From contig NZ_AUKC01000005.1 of assembly GCF_000424545.1 (NCBI RefSeq), positions 1 through 64,000 of the forward strand: DNA of 64,000 bases, given 5' to 3'. The position numbers and the translations under genes are program-made. Below are positions 7,030 through 42,229 of this stretch, one piece after another; position 1 is the first letter of the stretch; each line of letters starts with the position of its first letter. Source of the stretch: Butyrivibrio sp. NC3005. GTDB lineage: Bacteria; Bacillota; Clostridia; Lachnospirales; Lachnospiraceae. The notes below the pieces were generated by a model. The model made no database searches, was not told the origin of the DNA, and worked only from the letters and a program-made list of their open reading frames with translations.

Positions 7030-7159
7030 ATAGGTTATTGTTTTCATCAGGAAAATCAATAACCGTACCAGACCAAAATTTGTCGTTAAGACAAATTTTG
7101 TCCTGCAAAGCAGGATTCTTGCTGATGATTATCCTAAATCTCAGCAAGAAGTCATAGAT
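7030..7159 (+). repeat. dispersed multi-hairpin repeat, copy 1
   Basis: First of three copies in the window (others at 20019-20148, minus, and 42132-42229). It contains four consecutive stems: GGTTATTG/CAATAACC (7033-7040/7057-7064), AAAATTTGTC/GACAAATTTT (7075-7084/7090-7099), CCTGC/GCAGG (7102-7106/7110-7114) and TTCTTGCTGA/TCAGCAAGAA (7116-7125/7141-7150). By eye it differs from copy 2 at about three positions over ~130 nt. It sits between a GGDEF gene and a PilZ gene, sense strand opposite to both. Confidence 0.85.
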
Positions 7160-7161
7160 TT

Positions 7162-7289
7162 TTGTCACTACGTTCCAAAAACTACGCAAACTGGCCATTT
7201 AAAAAGGCTTCGCCTTGGACCAGTTTGCCACTTGATTTTTGTTCTCACGAAACTCGCAGTAAATGCGAGTTTCTGAATGTAAGTGACAA
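7162..7289. repeat. three-way-junction hairpin element next to repeat copy 1
   Basis: The outer stem pairs 7162-7175 with 7275-7289 (14 bp with one bulge and a G-T pair). It encloses two arms: GCAAACTGG/CCAGTTTGC (7186-7194/7220-7228, with an inner AAGGC/GCCTT stem) and GAAACTCGCA/TGCGAGTTTC (7249-7258/7264-7273). It ends in CAAGAAGTCAT, the same end as the neighbouring repeat. No gene is convincing in 6986-7378. Confidence 0.6.
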
Positions 7290-7324
7290 GAAGTCATTCT
7301 TTTTTAAATATCGACATTTTATTC

Positions 7325-7360
7325 AAAAAAATTACTGCTTACACAATATATGTAAGCAGT
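7325..7360 (-). terminator. Rho-independent terminator of the PilZ gene
   Basis: Minus strand: a perfect 10-bp stem ACTGCTTACA/TGTAAGCAGT (7334-7343/7351-7360) followed by a T run (7325-7333). Confidence 0.8.
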
Positions 7361-7378
7361 AGTCTTTATCTTTTAACT

Positions 7379-7729
7379 TTATTCATTTTGCGGAATCAAC
7401 ATTTCAACAGTTTCGTAAACTTCAATCCTTTTTCTATCTGTATCTGGCATTCCTATAAAGATACATCCATATTTATAACCTTCTTCAAGTTTCTCTGATC
7501 TGACAATCTGTAAAAAAACAACCAGTGTTTCTTTAGTCCATATAGTCAGAGATGCTTCATAAATATCTCCAATCATCAATTGTTTGTCACATAAAAAGCC
7601 TATTCCAAAACGTGAACAGTCCGTTACTGTGATTTGAGCTTCTTCTTCGCCTCCAGTATCATCACCAAGCGCTTTTATGATAATTGAACCGGTAAGATCG
7701 AGGCGTCTAACTCTTCTTCTCTCTTCCAT
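7379..7729 (-). CDS. PilZ domain protein (c-di-GMP receptor)
   Basis: Stand-alone PilZ domain of 116 aa, predicted cytoplasmic. Both c-di-GMP binding motifs are visible: the Arg-rich start (EERRRVRRL, the RxxxR motif) and DCSRFGIGF (D-x-S-x-x-G). PilZ proteins link c-di-GMP to motility or exopolysaccharide. The GGDEF enzyme lies downstream on the same strand, separated by a terminator and the hairpin repeats, so they are neighbours but probably not one transcript. Confidence 0.88.
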   Translation of the reverse strand: MEERRRVRRLDLTGSIIIKALGDDTGGEEEAQITVTDCSRFGIGFLCDKQLMIGDIYEASLTIWTKETLVVFLQIVRSEKLEEGYKYGCIFIGMPDTDRKRIEVYETVEMLIPQNE

Positions 7730-7835
7730 ACACGATTTCCCTTCTTAGAAAAATCCATATCCAAAACAGCACTATCAAAAACGAAATTACATTTAAATTA
7801 TATCGCTTATAAGTTTTGTTGTCTATAAAAAATCT

Positions 7836-9329
7836 TTAGTATATCACAACCGGAGTCCCTATCTTTACAATTCCATACAAAGTTTTAGCATTTTGAGTCG
7901 ACATATTAATGCAACCATGAGAACCGCTTGTCTTATAAATTTTGTTTCCAAAATCCTGTCTCCATGAAGCATCATGCATTCCTACCCCTTTATATACAGC
8001 CATCCAGTATTTAACGTAGGATATATATCCTGGTCCTCTTAAATATCTGTTTCGACTCTTTGAGTACACATAATAAACTCCTGTTGGAGTGTTTCTTTTT
8101 AGTTTTTCATTTCCTGTCACTATTTCGCAATCCATTACAAGTTGCGCATTAGCATAATAGTACAAATGTTGTCCTTTTATATCAATCTCAACATAAGTCT
8201 GTCCAATATCATCATTACAATCAGCAAAAGTGTGAATAACAGATTTTGGCTCATGAACACCCTTTTTTTCTTTTAGTATGCTATCTATTATAAATTTAAA
8301 TTCAACATCCGTATCAATTATGTTTCCATAGCTTCCAATATCTGTCTGAATAATTTTTCCAAATGCAGTTCTAAAATTTCTGTTTTTGTCAATTGTTGTA
8401 TAGTGTCCACACAAGCCATCTATCTGCTCGTACAATAAAGATTCACTTATTATGATGTTAGAATTGTCATCTACTGCAAAACCATTTTCTATATGTATTT
8501 TTTTAGGAAAATTTACTTCTTTTTTATTGACTATAAAAAGGCCCTCACCTTTCCTTGACTTACGCTTTTCTTTTGAAACAATATCAACCACATCCTGAGT
8601 TACTATAGCTCCTGCAAGAATTGAATCCAATTCCTGCTCATTTCCCCCAAATTTGTAGATTATACCTGTACTTTGAGCTTTTTCTATCTTCTTGTAGGTA
8701 TTCATAACAGTTTTCATTTTAGCAGAAACAGGTAAATTTTTATAACATCCGTTGTTTTTAGTTAATTCTACTCTTTTTTTCCCTGTTATTATTGCTTTTT
8801 TTATAACATTAAATATCTGTTCTTTGTCCGGAACATCTTTGGTAGTATCTAATAGCTTATAACCTTCATCTACCAGATAAACTATTTTTATTCCTTTTTG
8901 GGATTTTTTTTGAAAAATATCCCATGAACTCACCTCTTTAAGCAACAACTCATCATTCATGGATACGTCTGGAACTATAATACTATCTTTGGGTTTATTG
9001 GTAAAATTTCCCAAAAAAGAAAATGAATTTTGATTTCTTAATAATTTTTGAAGACTTTTGGAATAGTCGAGATTAATGTTAAATTTGTGCAGATTCAGTT
9101 CATATATCTGCTTATCCTTACTTATAACCTGCAAGCTATTAACTTTAGCTGTTTCAGATAAAAGCTTCGAGGCTTCATCAAGAGTAAGTCCTGTGATGTA
9201 TTGCCCATTGGCAAATGTTCCAAATAAAAAACGGTCGCGATAATGATAGGCAAGTGTAAAATATACACTCGCCATCACAATCGTGATTGAAATTATGGTT
9301 CGTAAAAAATACTTACCAAATGTTTTCAT
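7836..9329 (-). CDS. L,D-transpeptidase (YkuD) with N-terminal peptidoglycan-binding domain
   Basis: Cell-wall enzyme of about 497 aa forming 3-3 crosslinks or attaching stem peptides. One N-terminal transmembrane segment (~residues 10-30) anchors it. A PG_binding_4/VanW-like region follows (GLTLDEASKLL), and the C-terminal YkuD domain ends with SHGCINMS, the catalytic Cys being near residue 473. The start is ATG 9329, overlapping the ilvB stop (TGATG) by 1 nt, not the TTG at 9332. It is translationally coupled to a branched-chain amino acid gene, an unusual partner. Confidence 0.92.
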   Translation of the reverse strand: MKTFGKYFLRTIISITIVMASVYFTLAYHYRDRFLFGTFANGQYITGLTLDEASKLLSETAKVNSLQVISKDKQIYELNLHKFNINLDYSKSLQKLLRNQNSFSFLGNFTNKPKDSIIVPDVSMNDELLLKEVSSWDIFQKKSQKGIKIVYLVDEGYKLLDTTKDVPDKEQIFNVIKKAIITGKKRVELTKNNGCYKNLPVSAKMKTVMNTYKKIEKAQSTGIIYKFGGNEQELDSILAGAIVTQDVVDIVSKEKRKSRKGEGLFIVNKKEVNFPKKIHIENGFAVDDNSNIIISESLLYEQIDGLCGHYTTIDKNRNFRTAFGKIIQTDIGSYGNIIDTDVEFKFIIDSILKEKKGVHEPKSVIHTFADCNDDIGQTYVEIDIKGQHLYYYANAQLVMDCEIVTGNEKLKRNTPTGVYYVYSKSRNRYLRGPGYISYVKYWMAVYKGVGMHDASWRQDFGNKIYKTSGSHGCINMSTQNAKTLYGIVKIGTPVVIY

Positions 9330-11002
9330 CAATCTTTAAGATCCTTTGCATCAAATGCTTCACTTATCGGTTTACCAGCTGGAACCATTGGAAATACTTT
9401 CTCATCTTTATCAACAACTACATCGATAACAACAGGTCCATTTGACTCTAAAGCTTCTTTTAATGCCGCATCAGCTTCTTCTTTAGTTGTAACCTTTATG
9501 GCTTTACATCCAAGTCCCTCTGCAACTTTGCAGTAATCTACTTTATCTTCAAGGACTGTCTGGCTATACCTTTTACCATAAAAGAGATTCTGCCACTGTC
9601 TGACCATTCCTAAAACATGGTTATCTATAATAACTTCTATGATTGGAATGTTATACCTACTTGCAGTAGCAAGTTCATTCATATTCATTCTAAAACATCC
9701 ATCACCAGCAATATTAATACATACCTTATCCGGTCTGCCTGCTTTAGCTCCTATAACTGCTCCAAGTCCATATCCCATTGTTCCTAGACCGCCGCTTGTG
9801 ATAAAACTTCTAGGATTCTTATATTTATAGTACTGCGCTGCCCACATCTGATGTTGACCTACATCTGTTGTTATGATAGCTTCGCCATTTGTAAGTTCAT
9901 CAATTTTCTCCATGATATAAGGGCAAGTAAGAGCATCTTTGTTATATTCAAGCGGGAACTTTTCTTCCAATCCTTTTATCTTTCTTATCCACTCATCATG
10001 GTTAAGATCTGTTAATTCTTCATTCAGATCAGACAATATGTCTTTCAAATCGCCCACTATTGAAGCGTCAGTTAAAACATTCTTGTTTATTTCTGCAGCA
10101 TCAATGTCAAACTGTACTATCTTGGCATTCTTTGCGAAAGTTTTGGCATTTCCTATTACTCTATCAGAAAAACGTGCTCCACAGGTTATAAGCAAGTCAC
10201 ACTCACTAACGCCAAAATTTGAAGTTTTAGTGCCATGCATTCCAATCATTCCAGTATACAGCTCATCATGACCATTAAATGCTCCTTTTCCCATAAGTGT
10301 ATCACACACAGGAGCCTGAATCTTATGTGCAAACTCTTTTAGTTCTTTTGATGCGCCGGAAATAATAGCACCTCCGCCAACATAAATAAACGGACGTTTG
10401 GAGCTTGTTATAAGTTTTGCAACGTTTTTGATTTCTTCCCTAGTATACTTTTTCACAGTCTTTTTTTCTGCAATTTGCTCTGGAATATACTCACATTTAG
10501 CTGCTGTAACGTCTTTGGTTATATCAACAGTAACTGGACCTGGTCTTCCTGTTCTTGCTATTTCAAAAGCCCTTCTAATAGTATCTGCCAGCTTATTAAT
10601 ATCCTTAACAATAAAGCCATGCTTTGTAATCGGCATTGTTATTCCGTTCATATCAACTTCCTGAAAGGAATCTTTACCAAGAGCTGGAAGCACAACGTTA
10701 CATGTAATTGCGACCATAGGGACACTATCCATATATGCTGTAGCTATTCCTGTTACAAGATTAGTAGATCCAGGTCCTGATGTTGCCATACAAACGCCAA
10801 CTTTTCCTGTAGCTCTAGCATATCCATCTGCTGCATGTGCTGCCCCCTGCTCATGGCTTGTCAATATATGAAAAAACTCATCCTGATGTTTATAGAGTTC
10901 ATCATAAATGTTGAGAATCGTTCCTCCTGGATATCCGAATACTGTATCAACCCCCTGCTCCTTCAAGCACTTCAACACGATCTCTGCACCGTTTAAAACC
11001 AT
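9329..11002 (-). CDS. ilvB: acetolactate synthase large (catalytic) subunit
   Basis: First common step of valine/leucine/isoleucine synthesis: two pyruvate to 2-acetolactate, or pyruvate + 2-oxobutyrate. 557 aa, full length. The catalytic Glu is E51 in TSHEQGAAH, FGYPGGTIL is the N-terminal signature, and the ThDP/Mg site is GDGCFRMNMNELATA. RBS AAGGAG precedes the ATG. It sits 22 nt after ilvD. No regulatory subunit gene (ilvN) is next to it; the following gene is an L,D-transpeptidase, so ilvN must lie elsewhere or be absent. Confidence 0.95.
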   Translation of the reverse strand: MVLNGAEIVLKCLKEQGVDTVFGYPGGTILNIYDELYKHQDEFFHILTSHEQGAAHAADGYARATGKVGVCMATSGPGSTNLVTGIATAYMDSVPMVAITCNVVLPALGKDSFQEVDMNGITMPITKHGFIVKDINKLADTIRRAFEIARTGRPGPVTVDITKDVTAAKCEYIPEQIAEKKTVKKYTREEIKNVAKLITSSKRPFIYVGGGAIISGASKELKEFAHKIQAPVCDTLMGKGAFNGHDELYTGMIGMHGTKTSNFGVSECDLLITCGARFSDRVIGNAKTFAKNAKIVQFDIDAAEINKNVLTDASIVGDLKDILSDLNEELTDLNHDEWIRKIKGLEEKFPLEYNKDALTCPYIMEKIDELTNGEAIITTDVGQHQMWAAQYYKYKNPRSFITSGGLGTMGYGLGAVIGAKAGRPDKVCINIAGDGCFRMNMNELATASRYNIPIIEVIIDNHVLGMVRQWQNLFYGKRYSQTVLEDKVDYCKVAEGLGCKAIKVTTKEEADAALKEALESNGPVVIDVVVDKDEKVFPMVPAGKPISEAFDAKDLKD

Positions 11003-11024
11003 TGATTATACTCCTTACCTTATA

Positions 11025-12689
11025 TCATTTATTCTCAAGTATCGCACCTTTGTTACCACTTGTAACAAGTTTTTCGTATCTTGAAAGATATCCTCCTGTT
11101 ACTTTTGGCTTTCTAGGCTTCCATAATGCTCTTCTTCTATCCATTTCTTCATCAGAAATCTTCACATTAAGAGTGTTGTTATTAATATCAATAGAAATAA
11201 TATCGCCTTCCTCTACAAGTGCAATTGGACCTCCAACTGCTGCCTCTGGCGAAACATGTCCAATAGATGCTCCTCTGCTGGCTCCTGAGAATCTTCCGTC
11301 TGTAATAAGAGCCACTGTTGAACCAAGTCCCATTCCAGCAATTGCAGATGTAGGATTAAGCATTTCTCTCATTCCTGGGCCACCTTTTGGTCCTTCATAT
11401 CTAATGATAACAACATCACCATCAACAATCTTTCCACCAAGAATTGCTTCGATTGCATCTTCTTCACAATCAAATACTCTTGCAGGTCCTTCATGTACAA
11501 GCATTTCAGGAGCCACTGCAGCTCTTTTTACTACACCTGTATCAGGTGCAAGGTTTCCTTTAAGTACTGCAATTCCACCATTCTGAAGGTATGGATTCTC
11601 TATAGGTCTGATAACTTCAGGATCAAAGTTAACAACATTTTCAAGGTTCTCTCCAACAGTTTTACCTGTACAAGTAATAAGATCTGTGTGAAGAAGATTT
11701 TTTTTAGTAAGTTCTTTCATAACTGCATACACGCCGCCTGCTCTGTCAAGCTGTTCCATATAGGTAGGACCTGCCGGAGCAAGGTGACATAAGTTTGGAG
11801 TTCTGGCTGAAATCTCATTTACATATTCCATATCTATTTCAACGCCTGCTTCATGTGCAATTGCAGGAATATGAAGCATGGTATTGGTAGAGCATCCAAG
11901 TGCCATGTCCACAGCCAAAGCATTCTCAAATGCCTTATCTGTCATAATATCTCTTGGTCTTATATTATTCTTAAGAAGCTCCATTATTTGATATCCTGCC
12001 TTCTTGGCCAGACGGATACGCGCGCTGTAAACAGCTGGAATTGTACCATTTCCTCTAAGCCCCATTCCGATTGCTTCTGTAAGGCAGTTCATAGAGTTCG
12101 CTGTGTACATACCGCTGCAACTACCACATGTAGGACAGACTTTTTCTTCATACTCTGCAAGCTGTTCTTTTGTAAGTGTACCCGCTGTTACCTGACCTAC
12201 AGCCTCGAACATAGATGAAAGTGAACGTCTTCTGCCATCAACTACACCAGCGAGCATTGGACCACCTGAAACAAAGATAGTAGGAATGTTGACTCTTGCT
12301 GCTGCCATCAAAAGTCCCGGAACATTCTTGTCACAGTTAGGAATCATTACAAGAGCATCAAAACCATGTGCCATTGCAAGGCACTCTGTGGAATCTGCAA
12401 TCAAATCTCTTGTAACAAGAGAATATTTCATTCCAATATGTCCCATTGCTATTCCATCACAGACAGCAATAGCCGGAACGATTACTGGCATGCCTCCTGC
12501 CTCTGCAACTCCCATTTTTACAGCCTGTGCAATACGATCAAGTTCCATATGTCCCGGGATTATCTCACTTTGTGAGCTCACTATTCCAATCAGCGGCTTT
12601 TTCTTTTCTTCTTCTGTAAATCCTAATGCATTAAAAAGACTTCTGTGGGGTGCCTGCTGCAATCCCCTCAAAACACGATCACTATTCAT
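11025..12689 (-). CDS. ilvD: dihydroxy-acid dehydratase
   Basis: Converts 2,3-dihydroxyisovalerate and its homologue to the 2-oxo acids in branched-chain amino acid synthesis. 554 aa, a standard length. Iron-sulfur cluster Cys are visible in NCDKNVPG and [17 protein letters not shown], and the C-terminal [18 protein letters not shown] block is conserved. AGGAGG precedes ATG 12689. It lies in the leuB-ilvD-ilvB run. A long reverse-strand frame within it (11002-11586) is a shadow. Confidence 0.96.
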
Positions 12690-12707
12690 AGAAACCTCCT
12701 ACCAAAA

Positions 12708-14375
12708 CTATTTTGTCAATAGAATATAACTATTGTTTTCATACGTTACATGCAGGCCACTTATTAGTGCCTTACTCTCATCCATACCTTGTTTTAACAA
12801 TACAAAATCACAATCCTGTATTGTATCGCTGCAAGGTATTTTGCCATACATAAAATCAATCATATATCTTTGTGTATCATCTAAAACATATACTTTATTG
12901 AACTTATTAGAACGCACCATCACAAAAGCCTGATACAATTCATCTGTGTCATTTTCATAAGGAATATAAAAAATCTGTCCAAATACAAGTCTAAAGAAAA
13001 AATAAATAGCAGCTAATATAGGAATCCAAAATGATGCTTTTAAGTATTTTTCGGGTATAATATAATCTTTTTCCGAATCTGCTTTTTTATTTTTCTTTGC
13101 AAAAAAACTTTTAATTATCTTTGCTTTTAGAGCCTGACATATAACAACAATATTTTTGATTACAACAACTATAGACATAGCCATACACACCCCCATATAC
13201 ATAAAGGTGCTATTCTCCGGAATATTGTTGGTAAAAATAAGTTCAAAAGGCATCCATAGCTGAACAAATATCAGAATAAGTCGTATGATTGTCCTACTTT
13301 CTTCAAAATGTCTGACACATTCAAGAAAAAGAAAAATCAGCGCTATTGCCCCAAATCCTATCAGAATCCATCCAAGTCCCTTTGCAAAATCATTAGATAG
13401 TCCGTATACAAAATTCACCCACCTCTTTGAATAGGTATCACCTTCAATTTTCTGTGCTCCAAAAGGCTGAAGAAATAAATCTGTTCCAACAGTTAGGATA
13501 CGTCCAGGTTTTTTGGGAAAGGTTACAATAGTCTTGATAAATCCAGCATCTTTTCCTAAAATACTCTGCGTCCCTATAGAAACAATCAATATAAGATACA
13601 AAAATCCGTCTATTGCAAATGCAATCATTGCACATAAAAGGATACTAAACAGCTGAGAATAATAGTTGTTATTGTACCATTTTCCGCTAACCTTTCTGGT
13701 CCTAAAACCATTAAGAAAAAGATAGAACACTACGGCTGCTGTTGTAGGTATAACCCAGCATACATTCCAGGGAAGTACATATAATGCGCATGCAATAATA
13801 CTCGTGAAGATAATGTATTGTTTCCTGTCAAAACTATAGGTTACGTTCAATCTTGTAAGCATATAAAAACACAACAGGAAATAAAAAGTTGAGAAACAGT
13901 ATCCTCTTCCAAGCACACTGCAATTATTAACTTGATAAAAACCCAAATAAAAGATTACCGCAACTATGGGAAGCCATGTATCTGACAACCTTCTCATTAT
14001 TCTGTATAAAAGAATGAGATTGCTGATTGCTGCTATACAGCTAAAGCCTCTTAGGCTTATCATAGAATTTCCTGTTAAATTTAAAAAACTACTGATAAAA
14101 TTGTACCCTACATGATTGCCCTCACTACTCCAATGTGTCATTACACGAAATGGACTCCTGCTAATAAAATAATAGTAATCGTGAAGTTCTCTATATGAGG
14201 GACTTAAATAAAACATTCTCCAAATATAATACAAGGAAAATGCAATAAGTATCAGTGTAAATACCATATTCTGTGGATCTGATATTATTTCTATGAAACT
14301 TCTTTTTTCTTCTGTAGTCGCCGTATTAGATGATACTGCATTCTTTGCTGAAACTGGATTCTCTTTTGTATTCAT
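12708..14375 (-). CDS. polytopic membrane protein, GT-C glycosyltransferase-like
   Basis: About 555 aa with ten or more hydrophobic segments. The pattern near the N-terminus (a loop after the first helix, then SLRGFSCIAAISNLILLYRI) resembles the 'alR..S.l.g...l.lY...r' signature of ArnT/PMT-like GT-C enzymes, but I cannot see a definite catalytic Asp pair. Function is therefore uncertain; lipid-linked sugar transfer is one possibility. The start is uncertain: ATG 14375 is used; TTG 14405 is in frame just after the leuB stop, and neither has a good RBS. It is wedged between leuB and ilvD. Confidence 0.75.
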   Translation of the reverse strand: MNTKENPVSAKNAVSSNTATTEEKRSFIEIISDPQNMVFTLILIAFSLYYIWRMFYLSPSYRELHDYYYFISRSPFRVMTHWSSEGNHVGYNFISSFLNLTGNSMISLRGFSCIAAISNLILLYRIMRRLSDTWLPIVAVIFYLGFYQVNNCSVLGRGYCFSTFYFLLCFYMLTRLNVTYSFDRKQYIIFTSIIACALYVLPWNVCWVIPTTAAVVFYLFLNGFRTRKVSGKWYNNNYYSQLFSILLCAMIAFAIDGFLYLILIVSIGTQSILGKDAGFIKTIVTFPKKPGRILTVGTDLFLQPFGAQKIEGDTYSKRWVNFVYGLSNDFAKGLGWILIGFGAIALIFLFLECVRHFEESRTIIRLILIFVQLWMPFELIFTNNIPENSTFMYMGVCMAMSIVVVIKNIVVICQALKAKIIKSFFAKKNKKADSEKDYIIPEKYLKASFWIPILAAIYFFFRLVFGQIFYIPYENDTDELYQAFVMVRSNKFNKVYVLDDTQRYMIDFMYGKIPCSDTIQDCDFVLLKQGMDESKALISGLHVTYENNSYILLTK

Positions 14376-14410
14376 ATAACTATCTATGATTATAAAAGAA
14401 TCCAATTTAT

Positions 14411-15505
14411 TTATCGAATTCTTTCTACAATCAAATCTCCCATTTTTTTACAACCACATATTTTATCCTGCGAAGTATCAGAATTTTTTAAATCCTGACT
14501 GCGATACCCTTCTTTAAGAACATTCTTAATTGCATCTTCAATAGCATTTGCTTCTTTTTCCAAATTAAAAGTATATCGAAGCATCATAGCTGCTGAAAGA
14601 ATTGTTGCAATTGGATTTGCAATATCTTTTCCTGCAATATCCGGTGCACTTCCATGACTAGGTTCATAAAGTCCAAAACTTGTTTCATTAAGAGATGCAC
14701 TTGAAAGCATTCCTATTGAACCTGTAATCATAGATGCCTCATCTGAAAGTATATCTCCAAACATATTCTCTGTAAGAATAACATCAAACTGAGAAGGTGA
14801 TTTAACAAGCTGCATTGCACAATTATCTACAAGCATATGTTCAAGTTCGACTTCAGGATACCCCTTTGCTACTTCATTTACAACTTTTCTCCAAAGTCTT
14901 GATGAATCTAATACATTTGCCTTATCTACACTTGTAACTTTTTTATTGCGTTTCATAGCAACTTCAAAAGCTCTTACTGCTATTCTTCTTATTTCGTGCT
15001 CACTGTAAACAAGAGTGTCTGTAGCAACTTGCTCGCCATTTATTTCTTCGGTTTTTCTTTTACCAAAATAAAGACCACCTGTTAATTCCCTCATTATCAA
15101 AAGGTCAAAGCCTTTTTCTCCTGTTGATTCTTTAAGCGGACAAGCTTCTCGAAGTTCTGGATACAAATATGCCGGTCTTAAATTGGCAAAAAGTCCAAGC
15201 GCTTTTCTTATTTTCAGAAGGCCTGCCTCAGGACGCTTTTCAGGAGGCAATTTGTACCAGGGAGAAGTAACTGTATTTCCACCAATTGATCCCATTAATA
15301 CAGCATCTGCGCTCTTTGCTTTTTCAATTGCTTCATCTGTAAGCGGCTCACCATACTTATCTATTGAACATCCACCCATCAAAATATCTGTATATTCAAT
15401 TTCATGATTGTACACACTTCCAATTTTATCTAGAACACGTTTAGCCTGATCTACAATTTCAGGCCCTATGCCATCTCCCGGTATGCATGTTATCTTTAAC
15501 TTCAT
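14411..15505 (-). CDS. leuB: 3-isopropylmalate dehydrogenase
   Basis: NAD-dependent oxidation and decarboxylation of 3-isopropylmalate in leucine synthesis. 364 aa, the family's usual length. Visible motifs are PGDGIGPEIV at the N-terminus, the substrate-binding ELTGGLYFG loop, and the NAD-site GSAPDIAGKDIANPIA. ATG 15505 is preferred over ATG 15544 because AAGGAG lies 9 nt upstream and homologues start MKxKI. It is the first gene of the run with ilvD and ilvB. leuA, leuC and leuD are not in the window. Confidence 0.94.
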   Translation of the reverse strand: MKLKITCIPGDGIGPEIVDQAKRVLDKIGSVYNHEIEYTDILMGGCSIDKYGEPLTDEAIEKAKSADAVLMGSIGGNTVTSPWYKLPPEKRPEAGLLKIRKALGLFANLRPAYLYPELREACPLKESTGEKGFDLLIMRELTGGLYFGKRKTEEINGEQVATDTLVYSEHEIRRIAVRAFEVAMKRNKKVTSVDKANVLDSSRLWRKVVNEVAKGYPEVELEHMLVDNCAMQLVKSPSQFDVILTENMFGDILSDEASMITGSIGMLSSASLNETSFGLYEPSHGSAPDIAGKDIANPIATILSAAMMLRYTFNLEKEANAIEDAIKNVLKEGYRSQDLKNSDTSQDKICGCKKMGDLIVERIR

Positions 15506-15633
15506 AACTTTTTGCTCCTTCCCATTTTGCGTATTTTTAGCCATAGCTTATTAAACTTTAGCAACAATCTTTATTACAGTTTAAATTAATCATTATTACG
15601 TTTTAACGCGTCACTGCAAGAAAGTCATTTTCA

Positions 15634-15662
15634 ATACTATCTTAATTTTATTCAAAATACAA
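15634..15662 (-). promoter_or_regulatory. candidate promoter of the leuB-ilv operon
   Basis: Minus strand: TTGTAT (15657-15662), a 17-nt spacer, and TAGTAT (15634-15639). It lies between the yajC terminator and leuB and would give a leader of about 120 nt. No T-box consensus is visible in that leader. Confidence 0.45.
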
Positions 15663-15714
15663 GGTGCAAAATTAACATTATTCTGTTTATTCTATCAACA
15701 ATTAATTTATTACT

Positions 15715-15758
15715 AAATAAAAATACAGGAAGCCTATGATTTTACATAAACTTCCTGT
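15715..15758 (-). terminator. terminator after yajC
   Basis: Minus strand: stem ACAGGAAG/CTTCCTGT (15725-15732 with 15751-15758), followed by ATTTTTATTT. It separates tgt-yajC from leuB. Confidence 0.7.
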
Positions 15759-15777
15759 TTAAAAATCTCATTAAAAA

Positions 15778-16137: not shown

Positions 16138-16228
16138 TTTTCTTCCTCCAAAATCATTTTTGATAAAAAATCACTTTATTCATAATACACAAAAAAAGAC
16201 TATGATACAAGTTTTTTGCGTATTTATT

Positions 16229-17413: not shown

Positions 17414-17434
17414 AATTCCTAACCTCTATGAAAA

Positions 17435-20014: not shown

Positions 20015-20018
20015 ATAT

Positions 20019-20148
20019 ATCTATGACTTCTTGCTGAAATTTAGGATAATCATCAGCAAGAATCCTGCTTCGCAGGACAAAATTTGTCTTAACGACAAAT
20101 TTTGGTCTGGTACGGTTCTTGATTTTCCTGATGAAAACAATAACCTAT
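20019..20148 (-). repeat. dispersed multi-hairpin repeat, copy 2
   Basis: On the minus strand this is nearly identical to copy 1. Differences include CAATAACC to CAAGAACC (one stem mismatch), CTGCAAAG to CTGCGAAG (in the loop) and one loop C to T. It fills the gap between the aroC terminator and the end of the propeller-protein gene. Confidence 0.85.
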
Positions 20149-31574: not shown

Positions 31575-31597
31575 TAATAGTTCATATCAGATATTTA

Positions 31598-32995: not shown

Positions 32996-33034
32996 GATTT
33001 ATCTCCTTTTTCAGTTAATAGCAGCTTTTTTTAA

Positions 33035-33913
33035 TCAATCAGAACAGATACCACAGCCGCCCTTATGAGTCTTTCCTTCCTCCTGGGCAAGCTTTAATCT
33101 TCCTTCTTCTGTTTTATACTGCTTCATACGAACCATAGCCTGATCGAAGTCAACCTTATGTCCGTCAAATTCAGGTCCATCTACACATGCAAACTTAACT
33201 TCTCCGCCCACTGTAAGACGACATGCACCACACATTCCAGTTCCATCTACCATAATAGTATTCATAGAAACGATTGTTGGAATATTAAGTTCCTGTGTAA
33301 GTTTACATACAAATTTCATCATTATCATTGGTCCAATTGCAATACAAAGATCATAATGATGACCTTCATCTACAAGATCCTGAAGACACTTTGTTACCAT
33401 ACCACTTCTACCATAAGAACCATCATCTGTTGTTATATACAAATTGGAAACCTCTTTAAAACGCTCTTCCAAAATAACAAGATCTTTATTCTTGGCGCCA
33501 ATAATAACATCAGCTGTTATTCCATTTTCCTTGAGCCATTTAGCCTGAGGATAAACAGGTGCTGTACCAACACCACCAGCAATGAAAACTATTTTTTTCT
33601 TCTTAAGCTCTTCAAGATTCTCGTGAACCATATCAGAAGGATTTCCAAGAGGTCCAACTATATCAGCAAAAGAATCTCCTGCCTGCATCTTTGCAATTTC
33701 ATTTGTTTCAGCACCAATTGACTGAACTACAATTTCAACTGTTCCCTTTTCTCTATCATAGTCACAGATAGTAAGCGGAATACGTTCTCCTTCTTCATCT
33801 ACTCGAACAATTAAGAACTGTCCCGGAAGGCAATTTGCAGCCACACGAGGAGCCTCAACTACCATCTGATAGATATGGGCAGCCAGCTCATTTCTTTCCA
33901 AAATTTTGAACAT
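33035..33913 (-). CDS. NfnA/SudB-type ferredoxin-NADP+ reductase subunit
   Basis: 292 aa FNR-like subunit. FAD-binding block RIPLTICDYD, NAD-binding IAGGVGTAPVYPQAKWL, and 2Fe-2S Cys in MCGACRLTV and FACVDGPEFDGH. With the downstream gene it forms the electron-bifurcating transhydrogenase of many anaerobes. AAGGAG precedes ATG. The promoter lies at 33983-34011, and a perfect palindrome sits at the start of transcription. Confidence 0.91.
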   Translation of the reverse strand: MFKILERNELAAHIYQMVVEAPRVAANCLPGQFLIVRVDEEGERIPLTICDYDREKGTVEIVVQSIGAETNEIAKMQAGDSFADIVGPLGNPSDMVHENLEELKKKKIVFIAGGVGTAPVYPQAKWLKENGITADVIIGAKNKDLVILEERFKEVSNLYITTDDGSYGRSGMVTKCLQDLVDEGHHYDLCIAIGPMIMMKFVCKLTQELNIPTIVSMNTIMVDGTGMCGACRLTVGGEVKFACVDGPEFDGHKVDFDQAMVRMKQYKTEEGRLKLAQEEGKTHKGGCGICSD

Positions 33914-33952
33914 AATGCTGAATCTCCTTTTTTAAAAAATGCCAATTTGATC

Positions 33953-33971
33953 TTACTGTAATAAACAGTAA
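33953..33971. promoter_or_regulatory. palindrome at the nfn transcription start (candidate operator)
   Basis: TTACTGTAATAAACAGTAA is a perfect inverted repeat (7-nt arms, 5-nt centre). It sits directly downstream of the -10 of the nfn promoter, a usual place for a repressor. The overlapping 19-mer 33957-33975 is repeated at the aroC promoter. Confidence 0.5.
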
Positions 33972-33982
33972 CCATGCTTCTA

Positions 33983-34011
33983 ATAATACGACAAACATCA
34001 AATCATTGCAA
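33983..34011 (-). promoter_or_regulatory. nfnAB promoter
   Basis: Minus strand: TTGCAA (34006-34011), 17-nt spacer, TATTAT (33983-33988). It lies about 70 nt ahead of the nfnA start. Confidence 0.55.
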
Positions 34012-34060
34012 CAGTGTAACACATTAAAGTGTTAAAAATAATATTTTTTGAAATAAAGTT

Positions 34061-35401
34061 TTAATTTAGCTGTTTAAGAAAATAGTTTCCTGCAATGTCA
34101 GTGCCTAATCTGTAAACTTCTCTTGTATGAACATTTACTCCATATAAAAGGCCTGTCATAGTCTGTGTTCCATTGGAATAAACATGATTTTCAACAAGGA
34201 CATAGTAGTCGCCACTATTAATAGTTACAGACTTAGCGACAATGTACAGATAATATCCGTCAAGTCCGGTAGCTCTACCGTAACCATCTAAAAGATATCC
34301 TTTTTCAATCAATTTCTCAAGTAAAGCTGAAACAGCCTGTTCATGCGATACTTCAACGGAATAATGAAGCGAATAATTACACTCTACAACATGCGAGTAT
34401 CTACTGTTTTGTGCATTGTAAGCTATAAATTTAAATTTACTCTCACCATACGGCATATGGATAGGTCCTGTATATCTATTAGACGATGTCGAAGGTTTAC
34501 TTCCATCAACTGTATAATAAATACTACATCCATTATCCGTAGCAGCAACAATTTGAGTATCTGTTGTATAATTGCCACTAGCCTCGAGTATCTTTAATGA
34601 TGGAAGGTTTTGAGCTATCTCGTATTTTATAGTTGCAACATCAGAAAAAAGCCCAAGTTCATTTTCATATACTGCCCTTATTTCATATACTCCATCATCA
34701 TCCAGCTCTATAGGTTCTGTATCATCATATACTTTATCTTCTATAGTCGGATCATCTTCATTAATTGTATAATATATTTTCCCCTTACCTGATGTTATAT
34801 GAATGAGCTGAGACTTATCATATATTCCCTGAGCAAGAGAATATTCAGGCATATTGGGCAGATATTTTCCTGAATATTCATCTAATATCCCAGTATCTGT
34901 AGTTTTCTTAAGAATTCTTTGAATTTCTTCATAGTCTTCCAAAGCTTCAAGCTCCTTGATTTTGTCTTTTAATCCTTTAGGAGCTGTTATAGCCTGACTC
35001 GAACTATCAGAAACAACCACTTTTTTTTCTTCAGATTCTTCTTGTACAAAGAGTTTTTTTATACACAAAAAACCACATATGCATATAACAAAAAGCAACG
35101 CAACCATACATGTTACTGTAATTTTGGTTGAATTAAAAATGCGGCCTTCTTCATTGCTGTCAAAGTCATCTTCAGTAAAATCATCGCCATTTTCTTCAAC
35201 GTCTAATGCTTTACCGTTACTGACTTCAGCAAGAGAATGCTTTCTAGCATCCTCAATACTTTCAGCCAGTCCCAAGAGAGATTCATCTATCTGATTTTCT
35301 ATTTCAGGATCAAATTCCGGAACTATCTTAATCTCTTCACCGCATTTTGGACAGTAAAGCGAACCTTTTGGAATTTCATCTCCACATTTGGGACATTGCA
35401 T
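34061..35401 (-). CDS. membrane-anchored zinc-ribbon protein with CHB_HEX_C domains
   Basis: 446 aa. An N-terminal double CPxCG zinc ribbon (CPKCGDEIP, CPKCGEEI) lies on the cytoplasmic side, followed by an acidic stretch, one transmembrane segment near residues 95-118, and an extracellular part. That part has two copies of the chitobiase C-terminal-like fold (YYTINEDDPTIED; YYTVDGSKPSTSSNRYTGPI) and a final ~90-residue domain. It is probably an envelope sensor or scaffold; I cannot name a function. It shares its layout with the zinc-ribbon/TPR protein at 51260. Confidence 0.75.
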   Translation of the reverse strand: MQCPKCGDEIPKGSLYCPKCGEEIKIVPEFDPEIENQIDESLLGLAESIEDARKHSLAEVSNGKALDVEENGDDFTEDDFDSNEEGRIFNSTKITVTCMVALLFVICICGFLCIKKLFVQEESEEKKVVVSDSSSQAITAPKGLKDKIKELEALEDYEEIQRILKKTTDTGILDEYSGKYLPNMPEYSLAQGIYDKSQLIHITSGKGKIYYTINEDDPTIEDKVYDDTEPIELDDDGVYEIRAVYENELGLFSDVATIKYEIAQNLPSLKILEASGNYTTDTQIVAATDNGCSIYYTVDGSKPSTSSNRYTGPIHMPYGESKFKFIAYNAQNSRYSHVVECNYSLHYSVEVSHEQAVSALLEKLIEKGYLLDGYGRATGLDGYYLYIVAKSVTINSGDYYVLVENHVYSNGTQTMTGLLYGVNVHTREVYRLGTDIAGNYFLKQLN

Positions 35402-35439
35402 TTTTTTCTCCTTAACTATATATTATTGTTTTTTATTAT

Positions 35440-37110
35440 TTAGAATAATCCAACAATATTGCCATCATCATCAACATCGATGTCGAAAGCAGCTGGTCTT
35501 TTTGGAAGTCCAGGCATAGTCATAATAGAACCTGTAAGAACTACTACAAAACCCGCACCGGCGCTTACATATGCCTCTCTTATTGAAAGTTCAAAACCAC
35601 TAGGTCTTCCAAGCGCCTTAGGATCATCTGACAATGAATACTGTGTTTTGGCCATGCAGATTGGAAGATTTCCGAATCCCATTTCAGTAATCTGCTTGAG
35701 CTGCTTTTTGGCTGTCTGTGAGTAGGATACGCTTCCAGCTCCATAAATCTTTGTAGCAACTGCTTTCACCTTATCTTCAAGAGAAAGATCAAGTGAATAT
35801 ATTGGTTTAAAATCACTCTTTTTGTTCTCAAGAGTATTTAAAACCATCTTTGCAAGATCTTCACCACCTTCGCCGCCTTTTGCCCAAACATTTGAAAGCG
35901 CAAAATCACAATCTCTGTCTTTACAGAATTTTTCTACATAAGCTATTTCTTCTTCTGTATCAGTCAAAAATGAATTGAGAGTTACAACAACTGGAATTCC
36001 ATACTGTTTGAGATTCTCGATATGTTTCTCAAGATTTACGATTCCCTTCTCTAGTGCATCGAGATTTTCTTCTGAAAGATTATCTTTGGACACACCTCCA
36101 TTATATTTAAGAGCACGTATTGTTGCAACCAAAACAACAGCGTCAGGCTCAAGGCCAGCAGCTCTGCACTTAATATCAAGAAACTTCTCTGCTCCAAGAT
36201 CAGCACCAAAACCAGCCTCAGTAATAGCAATATCACCTAAAGCAAGAGCTGCCTTTGTAGCGCGAACAGAATTACATCCGTGAGCAATGTTGGCAAATGG
36301 GCCACCATGAACAATAACAGGATTATGTTCAAGTGTCTGAACAATATTTGGCTTCATTGCATCTTTCAAAAGTGCTGCCATCGATCCAACTGCATTTAAC
36401 TGCTTTGCAGTAACAGGCTCTCCTTTTCTATTATATGCAACAATAATCCTTGAAAGCCTTTCTTTCAAATCTTTAAGATCGTTTGCAAGGCAAAGTGCAG
36501 CCATAATTTCTGTTGCAACAGTGATAACAAAGTGATCTTCTCGAACAAAACCATCAACTTTTGCACCAAGACCAATTACAATATTACGAAGAGAACGATC
36601 ATTCATATCAAGGCATCGCTTCCAAACTATCTGTCTTGTATCAATATCCAATTCATTTCCCTGCTGAATATGATTGTCCAAAAGAGCAGCCAAAAGATTA
36701 TTTGCAGAAGTAATCGCATGAAAATCGCCAGTAAAATGCAAATTCAAATCTTCCATAGGCACAACCTGTGCATATCCGCCACCTGCTGCTCCACCTTTGA
36801 TTCCAAAACAAGGTCCAAGTGAAGGTTCACGAAGAGCTGCTACAGTCTTAACTCCTAGACGGTTAAGTGCATCAGCAAGGCCTATACTGGTGGTTGTCTT
36901 ACCTTCACCTGCCGGTGTCGGGTTAATTGCAGTTACTAACACCAGCTTCCCCTTAGGCTTTTTTTCAAGACTCTGCAAAAAAGACTCTGAAATTTTAGCC
37001 TTATACTTTCCGTACATTTCAAGATCATCCTCAGAAATGGAAACTTTGCTGGCAACCTCTCCTATCGGCAACTTAACTGCTTCCTGTGCGATTTGAATGT
37101 CTGTTTTCAT
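35440..37110 (-). CDS. fhs: formate-tetrahydrofolate ligase
   Basis: ATP-dependent formation of 10-formyl-THF from formate, 556 aa (full length). The P-loop is [14 protein letters not shown], and the folate-binding [19 protein letters not shown] block is intact. The C-terminus carries the [15 protein letters not shown] signature. RBS GGAGG precedes ATG 37110. Present in acetogens and many anaerobes for one-carbon supply to purines; with 5-FCL in this window it points to active folate one-carbon metabolism. Confidence 0.97.
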
Positions 37111-37178
37111 AAATAGTGCTCCTCCTACAAATAGAAATACTGTTACATATATGTGAACAAAAAATCATAGATTTTTGT

Positions 37179-40100
37179 TTACAACCCCTGATCTTTGCAA
37201 AACTGGTCAAACTGTTGTCTGTTCATAAGTATTTTTCTTGGTTTTGTACCTTCGCCATCTCCAACTACTCCCGCATCACAAAGCTGATCCATAATTCTGG
37301 CCGCTCTATTAAATCCAATCTTGAAAACGCGTTGAAGAGTACCAATTGAAGCTTTTTCTTTTTCTATAATAAAATTGCCTGCTTCTCTAAAATATTCATC
37401 ACGATCATTATTTTTACCAAAAATACTACCGCATCCTCCTTCGATACTTTGCATCTGTTCCTGTATCGAAGCATCATAGTTGTCATCACTATTTTTCTTG
37501 ACAAAATCCGTAATTTTCTGAATTTCTGAATCCGACACAAATGCCCCCTGTATTCTAATTGGTTTACTCATGCTCTGAGGATAGAATAGCATATCGCCTT
37601 TTCCTAATAGCTTTTCCGCTCCATTCATATCAAGGATGGTACGGCTATCAGTACCGGATGAAACCGCAAATGCAATTCTACTTGGCATATTTGCCTTGAT
37701 AAGTCCTGTAATTACATCAACAGATGGGCGCTGTGTCGCAATTACCAAATGAATTCCAGCTGCTCTAGCAAGCTGAGCCAAACGACATATAGCATCTTCA
37801 ACTTCATTGGCAGAAACCATCATTAAATCCGCAAGCTCATCTACTATTACCACTATCTTAGGCAATTTTTCCAAATTTTCATTTTCTGAAGCATTGGCCA
37901 TAACATACTCATTGTATCCCTTTAGGTCACGAACCTCTGCATCTGCGAAAAGTTTGTAACGTTTGGTCATCTCCGCCACAGCCCAGTTAAGCGCTGCTGC
38001 GGCTTTCTTTGGATCTGTAACAACAGGTATTAATAAGTGAGGTATTCCGTTGTAAACAGATAACTCAACAACCTTAGGATCAATCATAATCATTTTAACA
38101 TCTTCAGGTGATGTCTTATATATCAATGACAAAATCATAGTATTAATACATACTGATTTACCTGAACCTGTAGCTCCGGCTATTAGAACATGAGGCATCT
38201 TCGCAATATCTGTTACTATTGTCTTTCCCCCAATATCTTTTCCAACAGCAAAAGACAATCCGGCTTTTGATTCTTTGAATTCTTTCGATTCCAAGAGTTC
38301 GCGCAAAGTAACTGTAACTGTTTCTTTATTAGGAACCTCGATACCCACCGCGGGTTTTCCCGGTATTGGTGCTTCAATTCTAATATCTGTGGCAGCAAGA
38401 TTCAGCTTAATATCATCAGAAAGATTAACAATCTTTGATACCTTAACACCTACTTCTGGCTGCAACTCATATCTTGTTACTGCCGGTCCCTGACTAATAT
38501 CTGTAACCGTTACATTAACACCAAAAGTCTTTAATGTTTTCTCAAGTTTAAGCGCTGTTTCCTTTAAATCCTTCGCAGAATCTGTGTTAGCATTCTTGTC
38601 TCCCTGTTTTAGTAAATTAAGTGGAGGAAAAATATATTTCCTTGGTCTTTTTGGTTGTGGTCTTTCATCCAAAGATTTAGCAGGTGATTGCACTACTTTT
38701 GTATCATTGTTATTAGCTATCTTTGTGCCATTATTATAACTAATCTCTCCAGGCATATATGAAGGTGCCTTTGCCAAAGAAGAAATTTTCTGTTTCTCCG
38801 AACTTGCAGAGATATGATCTTGCGAATGAATTGCGTAGCCTTCATCGGAAAAGCCATTACCCTGATCCTTCATAATAGTCTTTCCGCCTGCATGAATAGG
38901 AATATCTGGCAATTCTTCTGCTTCATCATTTTTAGCCAATCTTGCAACAGGCTTTTTTGATGTAAAATCATCTGTGATTTCGACCATATCTTCATCGACA
39001 TCCTGAATTTTATCATAATAATCATCATAGTCTGAATCAATATCTTCTGAAATTTCCGGAATGTCATATTCCTCTTCCAAGTAAGAATCATCGAATTCTT
39101 CGTCATCTGTTTTTGATAAATTACCATTATAATCAGAAGGTGTGTTTTCAAAACAAGAAGTTCCTCGTAGATTTGTTTTCTTAACTTCATCAAGCAAAAC
39201 ATCACGCATCTTTTCGTAATCATCTTCATTTTTATTTACATCTTTGCTTGGTATAATCTCATCCTGGCTTTCATTTGGCTCTTCATAGAAATTATCATAA
39301 GAGTCCTCTTTAAAGCCATCATTATTACGAGTTTCCTGGTCAAAAAAGTCTGAACTATCGTCCATATATCCATGAATTCTTGGACCATCCAACATGATTT
39401 TTTCTTGTCCATTTGATTCCTCTTTAAGCGGAAGATATTCTTCACCTTCATTTAATATAATCTCATGAATATCATCGCAGGCGCTTTTTCCATCTGGAAT
39501 AAACAAATCATCATTTCCGGAAATCTGAAGAGCTTTCTCAAATGATACTTCATCTATATTTTCATCAATATCATCAGATATTTTCAGATTGATGTCACCT
39601 ATTCCATGTGCTTTTCTATTAAGTCGAAGAAGTACTTCATCTTCTTTAAGCTGCGACATCATTCTCTTTTGATGTTCTAATTGCTTTCTCTTTTCTTCTA
39701 TTCTTGAACAACGTTCTAGAGCCTGATTTTTATAATAGATTGCATCTTCTCTAGCTCTTTCTCCAAGGATAATCCCGCCCTTTTTCAGTTCGCTAATAAG
39801 AGATCTTTGTGACAAAATAACTATACAAATTGCTGCTAATACAAGTAGTAAAAGGATAGTTCCTACTATAGAAATAGAATGTCTCAAAAAATATGCTACA
39901 GAACCAAAAATAACGCCTCCACCATTTTTATTCTCAACTGCAGTTTCAAATATTCTTGCAATATCATAAGAAGGCTCAAGTGTCCTACCTGTAGACAATT
40001 CAAAAGAAATTCCAATATCAAAAACAAGTCCAAGACCTGCAAGTATTTTGCGTACAGCAAGTGTAGAACCTTCATTTGAAATATAAAAAACAGCAGCAAA

Positions 40101-40436
40101 AGAAATAATTGGAGGCATAAGATATGCCAGCGCTCCGAACATTCCGAACATTACCTGACTTAGTGCTGATCCAATTACTCCGCAAATCCCGAAATTACAT
40201 AAAAAGAAATAAATAGCAACCGTAATAAGGACAAGAGCAAGTATTTCACTTTTAAGTTCATATCCTTCTTCGCTGACTACCCCAAAAGATCTTTCAGACT
40301 TGCTCTGAGCAGCCTTTGACTCAATTCCTTTTCTCCTTGATGAATTCCTTGATGTAGCATCACTCTTTTTTCTAGCCGAGGATCTGGCTGTTGTTGACCG
40401 ATTATTTGAATTAACACTCAATTTGTCATCTCCCAT
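37179..40436 (-). CDS. ftsK: DNA translocase FtsK/SpoIIIE with an unusually long acidic linker
   Basis: 1085 aa chromosome-segregation motor at the division septum. Four hydrophobic segments lie within residues ~65-210. A linker of about 400 residues, very rich in Asp/Glu/Asn/Ser, follows (~residues 215-620). The motor has Walker [14 protein letters not shown] near 750 and Walker [14 protein letters not shown] near 863. The winged-helix gamma domain that reads KOPS-like sites is at the C-terminus ([20 protein letters not shown]). Most SpoIIIE proteins are near 780-800 aa, so the linker is expanded. No good RBS is visible at ATG 40436. Confidence 0.95.
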
Positions 40437-40567
40437 AATTGTATTTTTCTTAGAGCGTCAAAATAAATTTTTATGCACTCAGATTAGTATATCATTTTAA
40501 AGATTCTTATGCTATACTTTTACTGTCTTATGTTCGCCACAAGAATATGTTTGTTATTAATATCAAA

Positions 40568-40606
40568 AAGCAGGTAGCAAAGCTATAGATTTTTTGCTAT
40601 CCTATA
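40568..40606 (+). repeat. hairpin in ftsK / unknown-gene divergent intergenic
   Basis: AGGTAGCAAA/TTTGCTATCCT forms an imperfect stem around 40570-40606, with CTATAGATTTTTT between; this resembles the TCATAGATTTTTG end of repeat copy 1 and may be a decayed fragment. The rest of 40437-40641 is AT-rich and probably holds divergent promoters for ftsK and the next gene. Confidence 0.3.
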
Positions 40607-40641
40607 TATTGTTTTTTTACAGATTTAACAGGAGTAGAAAC

Positions 40642-41217
40642 ATGGAATTTAAACAGGTTATTGATTCAAGTGCACTTAAACAGGTTGGAAACGATACTTC
40701 CGCCTTCAAAATCGGAGATGTTGCTTCTAAGTGCCGACTTATGAAAACTGAAAATGGTATCAAGGTCGATTTCAACTACACCGGTCCTAATGCTAGCAGC
40801 TATCTTCAATATGTTGAGAAACACAGAGAAGAACTCACCGAATATTTAATGAATCCTGATGTGGCTGATTTCTACGAGTGGATGGAACTTAGCCATCAGA
40901 CACCTCTTACGCTCAAAAAGCATGAAAAGGAAAATCTTATCCTCTTCGTTGACTTCAATCCTAATACATGTGTTATGGAAACAGGTATTTCAGATGAAAA
41001 CATCACAATGAAGCTTGGAGCTCCTCTCGTTCACATGAACATCGGCGAGATGTCACGTAATGACTTTAAGCTTGGAATTTACAATATGCTTCTTCTTGCT
41101 GATGAAATTGCACTTGCAATGGGAAATGAAAATCTTCGCAAGATGGCTAACATTGAGATGGTTAAAACATATCTTGCTGAAATCTATGACAAATATACAG
41201 AACAGCCTGAAATTTAA
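40642..41217 (+). CDS. conserved protein of unknown function (191 aa)
   Basis: Not recognised. A soluble 191-aa acidic protein with no signal peptide or membrane segment; predicted mixed alpha/beta. The codons favour C-ending forms (AAC, TTC, CTC) more than neighbours do, which suggests strong expression. The start ATG 40642 has CAGGAG 9 nt upstream. It is monocistronic, with a strong terminator. The C-terminal half is rich in Met/Leu/Ala helices. Confidence 0.82.
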   Translation: MEFKQVIDSSALKQVGNDTSAFKIGDVASKCRLMKTENGIKVDFNYTGPNASSYLQYVEKHREELTEYLMNPDVADFYEWMELSHQTPLTLKKHEKENLILFVDFNPNTCVMETGISDENITMKLGAPLVHMNIGEMSRNDFKLGIYNMLLLADEIALAMGNENLRKMANIEMVKTYLAEIYDKYTEQPEI

Positions 41218-41262
41218 TTATTGCTGGCAAATAATATTTGTATGAACCCTAAAATTAAAAAT

Positions 41263-41306
41263 TCCCCTTATATTCGTATTATCTACAGAATATAAGGGGA
41301 TTTTTT
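41263..41306. terminator. bidirectional terminator between the 191-aa gene and proB
   Basis: A perfect 13-bp stem TCCCCTTATATTC/GAATATAAGGGGA (41263-41275/41288-41300) followed by T6. An A run on the other side lets it serve proB on the minus strand too. Confidence 0.9.
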
Positions 41307-42102
41307 AATTCTTTCCAACAAAAAGTGTTCCCACTACCTTCTTATCAGCAATATCATATAATAATTCTGGTTTCTGACCATTTACTATCAAAACATCAAT
41401 TCCATGACTTGTTGCAAGTTTCGCTGCTTCAAGTTTGGTAATCATACCGCCTGTTCCTCTGTTAGAACCTGACCCTCCGGCATTTCTCATCAAATTATCA
41501 TCTATTTCTTCTACACGGCTTATAAGCTTTGCGCCTGGATTCTCATGAGGATTAGAATCATAAAAGCCCTCAATATCCGACAGTATAACAAGCTTGGACG
41601 CATTGGCAAATACTGCTACTATAGCTGATAACTTATCATTATCAGAAAAAAGTTTCTGATCTGATTCAATCTCAGTGTGGCTTATAGAGTCATTTTCATT
41701 AACTATAGGAATTATATGGTTTTCTAACAAAGCCTCAAGAGTATTCGTTAGGTTTTCTCTTCTTTCAGGAATCTGAACATCTTCATTACTAAGAAGAATC
41801 TGTCCGACCATTCGATTATATTCTCCAAAAAGCTTATCATATAAATGCATTAGTTCAAGCTGTCCTACAGAAGCTGCTGCCTGCTTCATTCTAAGTTCTT
41901 TTGGTTTTTGCGCAAGTCGCATCTTATTTGCTCCAACTGCTATTGCACCAGAACTAACTAATATAAGATCGTACCCAAGATTCTCCATTCCAGATAATGC
42001 TCTGCATAAAAGATCCATTTCGCGAATATTTATATCACCGTTCTCATTAGTAAGTGTGGATGTTCCGACTTTTACAACAATTCTTTTTTTAGAAAGTGCC
42101 AT
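41305..42102 (-). CDS. proB: glutamate 5-kinase
   Basis: First step of proline synthesis, ATP + L-glutamate to glutamyl-5-phosphate. 265 aa: the amino-acid kinase domain only, without the C-terminal PUA domain found in E. coli ProB. Motifs: KRIVVKVGTSTLTNENG at the N-terminus, NENDSIS, GSNRGTGGMITKLEAAK. ATG 42102 is chosen because GGAGG lies 6 nt upstream and homologues start here. proA is not adjacent. Repeat copy 3 lies upstream. Confidence 0.93.
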   Translation of the reverse strand: MALSKKRIVVKVGTSTLTNENGDINIREMDLLCRALSGMENLGYDLILVSSGAIAVGANKMRLAQKPKELRMKQAAASVGQLELMHLYDKLFGEYNRMVGQILLSNEDVQIPERRENLTNTLEALLENHIIPIVNENDSISHTEIESDQKLFSDNDKLSAIVAVFANASKLVILSDIEGFYDSNPHENPGAKLISRVEEIDDNLMRNAGGSGSNRGTGGMITKLEAAKLATSHGIDVLIVNGQKPELLYDIADKKVVGTLFVGKN

Positions 42103-42131
42103 TTTTTCCTCCATCAGCTCCAAATTAAAAA

Positions 42132-42229
42132 CTATAACCGTACAGACCAAAATTTGTCGTCAGATAAATTTTGTCCTTCGAAGCAGGATTCTTGCTGATG
42201 ATTATCCTAAATCTTAGCAAGAAGTCATA
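42132..42229 (+). repeat. dispersed multi-hairpin repeat, copy 3 (5'-truncated)
   Basis: Shares the last ~100 nt of copies 1 and 2 but lacks the 5' arm of the first stem. In stem 2, GATAAATTTT replaces GACAAATTTT, and in stem 4, TTAGCAAGAA replaces TCAGCAAGAA; both changes turn G-C into G-T pairs on this strand. One position in the small third stem is mismatched. Confidence 0.8.

Follow-up and report, generated by a model that had tools for sequence, protein, structure and literature searches.

Three intergenic spaces in a stretch of DNA from Butyrivibrio sp. NC3005 carry copies of a short repeat that folds into a row of hairpins. The question they raise is what the fold serves: the host, at each place where a copy stands, as a small regulatory RNA would, or the repeat itself, as part of a mobile element without genes. 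A preliminary description of the stretch (64,000 nucleotides, here called the window) entertained both possibilities. It located three copies of about 130 nt, and all three are present there; the repeat proper is now refined to a unit of 122 nt, AGGTT...AAGTC, with an AT on each side, as many aligned copies define it (family A). Four stem-loops had been ascribed to every copy. Copies 1 and 2 do have four, and copy 3, from which most of the first is missing, has three complete. Copy 3 is indeed shortened at its 5' end, homology extending only from about 42134 to 42226. The 3' end common to all three stands as well, corrected to CAAGAAGTC and the AT that flanks it. A unit that had been overlooked, a member of a second family, B, abuts copy 1 on its 3' side. 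It is 140 nt long and begins at the AT that closes copy 1; the end common to A and B is again CAAGAAGTC with its flanking AT. A search of the window for the right-end pattern places the CAAGAAGTCAT of this B unit at 7287-7297. The features are as follows.

7030..7031, no strand: AT flanking copy 1 on the left, read from the sequence
7032..7153, + strand: copy 1, a full-length family A unit (122 nt), its boundaries set by 62 aligned copies; fold z = -9.2
7033..7064, + strand: hairpin H1 of copy 1, whose outer arm is the unit's left end
7074..7100, + strand: hairpin H2 of copy 1
7101..7115, + strand: hairpin H3 of copy 1, TCCTGCAAAGCAGGA
7116..7150, + strand: hairpin H4 of copy 1, whose outer arm CAAGAA continues into the right end GTC
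7154..7155, no strand: AT common to copy 1 and the B unit, read from the sequence
7156..7295, + strand: full family B unit, with right end CAAGAAGTC followed by AT as in A; fold z = -7.4
20025..20146, - strand: copy 2, full-length A, with AT at 20023-20024 and 20147-20148
about 42134..42226, + strand: copy 3, an A unit minus most of H1, then AT; scored as 5'-shortened

The three copies lie between GGDEF and PilZ genes, between chorismate synthase and lactonase-like genes, and between amino acid kinase and flagellar basal-body rod genes. The open reading frame of the last starts with TTG, and would overlap the start of copy 3 by a few bases. The window also holds a separate repeat of 222 nt, at 48249-48470 and 50556-50777, the two copies of which are 83% alike and contain a tRNA-Met gene each.

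The whole 3.87-Mb draft genome was searched for further copies, and there are many: roughly a hundred of family A. At least 45 are near-full (40 of 240 candidates were scored). Right ends, CAAGAAGTCAT, number 196 genome-wide against 5 for the reversed pattern, and left halves (a 34-nt piece with at most three mismatches) number 105 against none for the reversed control. Together with the z-score of the fold of copy 1, these numbers exclude chance. The first 100 of the 196 right ends, from contigs 1-13, were sorted: 39 close full A units and 31 full B units; 10 A and 3 B units scored as 5'-shortened; 7 are interrupted by N or by the end of a contig; and 10 are short or belong to no unit. Within the set of 10 shortened A units, one (L110) is really an internal deletion that keeps H1, and another (L108) is a chimera with B. 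Of 88 left halves examined, 77 belong to full units, 8 are 3'-shortened and 3 are cut by the end of the sequence. Smaller pieces occur too. Units of H1 only, about 33 nt long, stand between two ATs (L009, L119 and L126), and remnants of right ends, 10-30 nt long (e.g. AAGTGACAAGAAGTC followed by AT), stand between unique sequence and an intact unit (L016, L020, L141, L261 and L271).

The ends of the units are fixed, and so is what adjoins them. AT is found on both sides of 71 of the 75 copies here for which both flanks are present, and on one side of the remaining four. The 42 copies from relatives divide into 37 with AT at either side, four with it at one side, and a single copy flanked by GT both left and right. 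In flanks free of end-like 9-mers, a pyrimidine (T or C) precedes the left AT in 95% of cases, and a purine (A or G) follows the right AT in 97% of cases here and 92% in relatives; weaker preferences for A/T occur 4-5 bases out. Of the 75 copies here, 37 carry an end-like 9-mer, belonging to another unit or to a remnant, in the left flank and 38 in the right; of the 42 in relatives, 6 and 5 do. The units have terminal inverted repeats: an inverted hexamer, TTCTTG/CAAGAA, is common to the left end, AGATTCTTG, and the right end, CAAGAAGTC. Joined units, whether tandem or back-to-back, have a single AT in common. Six right-to-right joints with one AT (CAAGAAGTCATGACTTCTTG) occur among the first 100 ends, and these read CATG, not CATATG. 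A cut after AT without duplication does not fit, because CATATG would be expected at such joints. Duplication of AT, and insertion between A and T, yield identical letters, and a cut between A and T would be compatible with these joints. The base that follows the right AT is not always A, and the TA duplication typical of IS630 is not seen at these flanks.

Copy 1 folds with an energy of -49 kcal/mol, the z of -9.2 being relative to shuffles. Its opposite strand folds equally well (z = -9.6), so folding energy alone cannot choose between the strands. Covariation was assessed in an alignment of 46 distinct sequences: relatives supplied 37, including four of a further family, E, and a selection of 9 came from this genome. 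The four hairpins have 93.6% of their cells paired, a share that drops to 39.7-54.2% when the partners are slid, and 23 of 39 pairs have changed on both sides, against 15.6 in shuffles; neither value was reached in any of 500 shuffles. The number of further pair types shows no excess (42 against 39.7, with 96 of 500 shuffles as high). Pairing is lower in H2 (83.6%), which is misregistered between subfamilies; the inner hairpins, H2 and H3, covary too. One group has the inner stem of H1 turned from TTTTT/AAAAA to AAAAA/TTTTT, with the direction of the loop, CATCAG, unchanged. Position 6 and its partner occur in this genome in A-T, C-G and T-A forms, and are mismatched as A-G in six of the 47 distinct rows. 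The pairing-preserving change that the preliminary description had surmised from two G-U substitutions is borne out well past G-U.

The repeats extend to related genomes. A core sequence, TCCTGCRAAGCAGGATTCTTGC, was found in at least 56 stretches of named genomes; among the matches listed, all are from Butyrivibrio or Pseudobutyrivibrio except one (L229), a lone match to the core. A combined A and B query matches 21 of 61 genomes of the same genus, the source genome included, mostly via B, relatives of which occur in about a third of the 61; matches to the A part are listed for two (G020 and G023). Family E has the same four-hairpin plan as A and different sequences. Another family, C/D, is 200-330 nt long with long imperfect inverted ends, and adjoins A and B at many loci (e.g. 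L056, L023 and L053), none in the window. The two ends of a C/D copy are often, but not always, of the same variant (ACTTTATTG, AGGTTATTG or AGATTATTG). Four B-like places occur on one plasmid of Butyrivibrio fibrisolvens. No match to the repeats was found in phages, and none of the viral contigs has the one exact B hairpin pattern that was searched. For one locus of strain LC3010 (L226), a query made of the two flanks with the element taken out has matches in 26 of 79 genomes. In two of these (G054 and G005) the alignment runs through the site and the element is absent; they are too diverged to give the exact joint, and LC3010 has some extra letters there. In a comparison with L294, the insertion (L226, 3886-4006) lies in the loop region of what is, in the relative, a terminator-like hairpin, and it adjoins a 17-nt hairpin between two ATs.

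A gene for the mover was sought in this genome among Y1, serine recombinase, DDE_3, IS110 and TnpB proteins. Wherever their ends were read, none resembled the repeats, and no gene-bearing element with these ends was found. Of 11 matches to Y1, the domain of IS200/605, the loci of 10 were read; they look IS200/605-like, have different starts and no AAGAAGTCAT end, and are rejected as the source. Serine recombinases gave 12 matches. They include an IS607-like element in five copies (L168-L172), which breaks the assembly at five contig ends; its copies start GGTTAATAACTG, with GG, unlike the repeats, and it too is rejected. DDE_3, characteristic of IS630, has no match in this genome, and occurs in 8 of the 61 same-genus genomes, including the repeat-carrying G007 and G020. 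IS110 gave one frame of 144 aa and one match under the cut-off. TnpB gave 11 matches; five loci were read on both sides and three partly, and their surroundings differ from the repeats. The four reverse transcriptase matches are group II introns (L278-L281), three of them identical-scoring copies and one partial. One C/D half stands beside a gene for a small resolvase (L163), and a second half was not found there; downstream of that gene, at about 2330-2440 on the - strand, is a run of GGGGTTGGGGTTGGTGTT repeats.

The next matter is the strand that the fold concerns, and the level at which it is maintained. Between lineages, in an alignment of 34 distinct rows from relatives, 73 cells are G-U and 1 is A-C; one doubtful pair accounts for 33 of the 73, and two pairs of H1 for most others. 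In the 46-row alignment, some rows of which are misaligned, the bias is weaker: the cells number 61 and 19, and the pair types 13 and 9. This excess of G-U over A-C points to the + strand, and is the weaker half of the claim because cells count sequences, not independent events. Within this genome, the corresponding numbers are 13 and 10. Restricted to rare alleles (those present in no more than two of 62 copies), they are 10 and 8, and the rare alleles are spread evenly: 26 fall on 84 paired columns and 14 on 38 unpaired ones (0.31 and 0.37 per column, p = 0.70). The preliminary description had suggested, from two G-U changes in copy 3, that RNA of the sense strand is or was selected at these loci. 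The equality of rare changes in paired and unpaired columns, and of G-U and A-C among them, goes against this. Rare G-U and A-C being about equally frequent, the two changes in copy 3 are what drift is expected to produce; on these counts they are indistinguishable from it, and so are no evidence of selection. Because stems and loops decay alike, and because copies have no orientation bias (below), the fold appears to be kept in mobile lineages rather than at single loci. We read this as selection on lineages that move, acting via the folded + strand, with drift at each landing site. The sense-strand signal between lineages fits a requirement for the folded + strand in movement. The evolution of the family suggests that the fold is of use in jumping, and not in serving the host.

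Our reading, then, is that these are families of non-autonomous mobile elements, MITE- or REPIN-like, moved in trans via the folded + strand, and we give it a probability of about 0.65. The mobile nature that had been offered as one of two possibilities is upheld by the copy number, the fixed ends, the AT flanks, the tandem and back-to-back joints, and the site that is empty in two related genomes. A unit would end in short inverted half-sites, RNNTTNTTG, which make up the outer arms of its terminal hairpins and which a putative enzyme supplied in trans would recognize. The unit would be joined to the chromosome at the AT within a YATR site, leaving one AT on either side. The folded + strand would be needed for a copy to move; we infer a single-strand step, in which single-stranded DNA is the likelier substrate than RNA. 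Once inserted, copies would decay neutrally.

A quite different role, as a host regulatory RNA or a cis-acting RNA element such as a terminator, an attenuator or a processing site, would account for the covarying structure and for the intergenic positions, none of 57 copies in this genome lying inside a long open reading frame. (Among 35 copies from relatives, two, L224 and L259, lie within an open frame of at least 110 codons, which is possibly not a gene.) Against it, rare changes strike stems and loops equally, and orientation is indifferent: of 56 copies with both neighbours present, 19 are sense, 17 antisense, 14 between convergent genes and 6 between divergent ones, and the 35 from relatives include 17 sense and 12 antisense. 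Copy 1 has no more promoter-like sites than shuffles do. Rfam recognized only two tRNAs in the window at gathering scores, and returned only chance-level matches to the copy 1 region at a relaxed threshold, in keeping with the earlier statement that no named family matches. A role of this kind is highly improbable, and the small regulatory RNA first proposed is rejected on the equal decay and the 19 to 17 split. Nor is a lagging-strand bias apparent among the 56 copies, 30 of which lie on the majority coding strand around them and 26 on the opposite, a weak proxy for replication direction. That the covariation arose without selection, the arms of hairpins being copied onto each other by template switching in replication, we consider barely credible. 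Arms of H1 that match again without fault in A-T, C-G and T-A forms within one genome, and some remnants that resemble inverted hairpin pieces, are what it would produce; the G-U pairs kept between lineages, the swapped H1 stem around a loop of unchanged direction, and the persistence of A-G mismatches are not.

Copying through an RNA intermediate, SINE-like, with reverse transcriptase supplied in trans, would suit the bias to the + strand, the 5'-shortened copies, and the presence of group II introns that encode such an enzyme. None of 40 left-half matches scored had looked 3'-shortened (one was cut by a contig end), and the model was dropped once the wider set gave 8 in 85, compared with 10 in 49 A copies that are 5'-shortened (one being the internal deletion). 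With both kinds of shortening found, the main reason for it is gone; the left ends of full copies are, moreover, exact, and AT stands on both sides. We regard it as very unlikely. A less distant competitor, doubtful all the same, is an ordinary double-strand MITE, cut with a 2-nt stagger at AT by a DDE transposase or a small serine recombinase, in which the hairpins merely reflect nested inverted repeats at the ends. The palindromic YATR site with AT on both sides, the common AT of right-to-right joints, and the end-like 9-mer in half of the flanks, as if existing ends were targets, are all natural to it. A double-strand mechanism has no need, however, of covariation in the inner hairpins H2 and H3, nor of the great excess of G-U over A-C between lineages, and a matching transposase was not found among the few families searched. 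Lastly, A/E, B and C/D may constitute a new class of mobile DNA, moved by one enzyme outside the known IS families that reads the folded + strand with its terminal hairpin and joins it at the AT core within YATR, a tentative suggestion with the odds against it.

If the repeats are moved in trans via the folded + strand, as we favour, Butyrivibrio and Pseudobutyrivibrio, rumen degraders of fibre, gain a repeat system that bears comparison with REPINs or BOX. Structure kept for the movement of an element and structure kept for a host RNA at its locus are often confused, and can be told apart here. The test, in which lineages that keep pairing are contrasted with copies that decay freely, is applicable to other structured repeats. 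And an end rule common to several families predicts one mover, which can be hunted for.

How do these repeats compare with those already known? No published description of them was found in the open-access papers searched, and their absence from print extends as far as that search. The structured intergenic repeats bcr1, of Bacillus cereus, and ERIC are regarded as mobile, and are comparable in kind only, by description. Elements derived from IS200/IS605 have hairpins at both ends, specificity for the + strand, a target like the right end, and tandem copies. The Butyrivibrio repeats resemble them in their end hairpins, + strand signal, targets that resemble the right end, and tandem copies, and differ in their right-to-right joints with a common AT, which speak against a cut after AT without duplication. 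BOX, RUP and SPRITE, of Streptococcus pneumoniae, are likewise small structured intergenic repeats, of other sequences. Of these, SPRITE is also partnerless by its ends, as described in PMC3049150. RUP is linked to IS630-Spn1, a member of a family not found in this genome. Stem-loop families of 40 genomes are listed in parts of PMC2267715. A further parallel is with REPINs, which, as portrayed in sections of PMC3116915, have a hairpin at each end in inverted orientation, many copies and compensatory changes, and are read as mobile miniature DNA. The present repeats, like REPINs and BIMEs as there portrayed, are short gene-less units in many copies, with inverted terminal hairpins (H1 and H4) that carry compensatory changes. 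The consensus of family A contains neither GTAG nor CTAC, however, and has four hairpins instead of a doublet. Its flanks are AT, where cleavage sites of TnpA_REP are given as CT/CA in parts of PMC8266576. A partner RAYT was not recognized; the 10 Y1 loci read look IS200/605-like and have no AAGAAGTCAT within them. Because GTAG is absent and no partner gene was recognized, we do not file the repeats as REPINs; we class them as new families within a kind already known, mobile repeats without genes.
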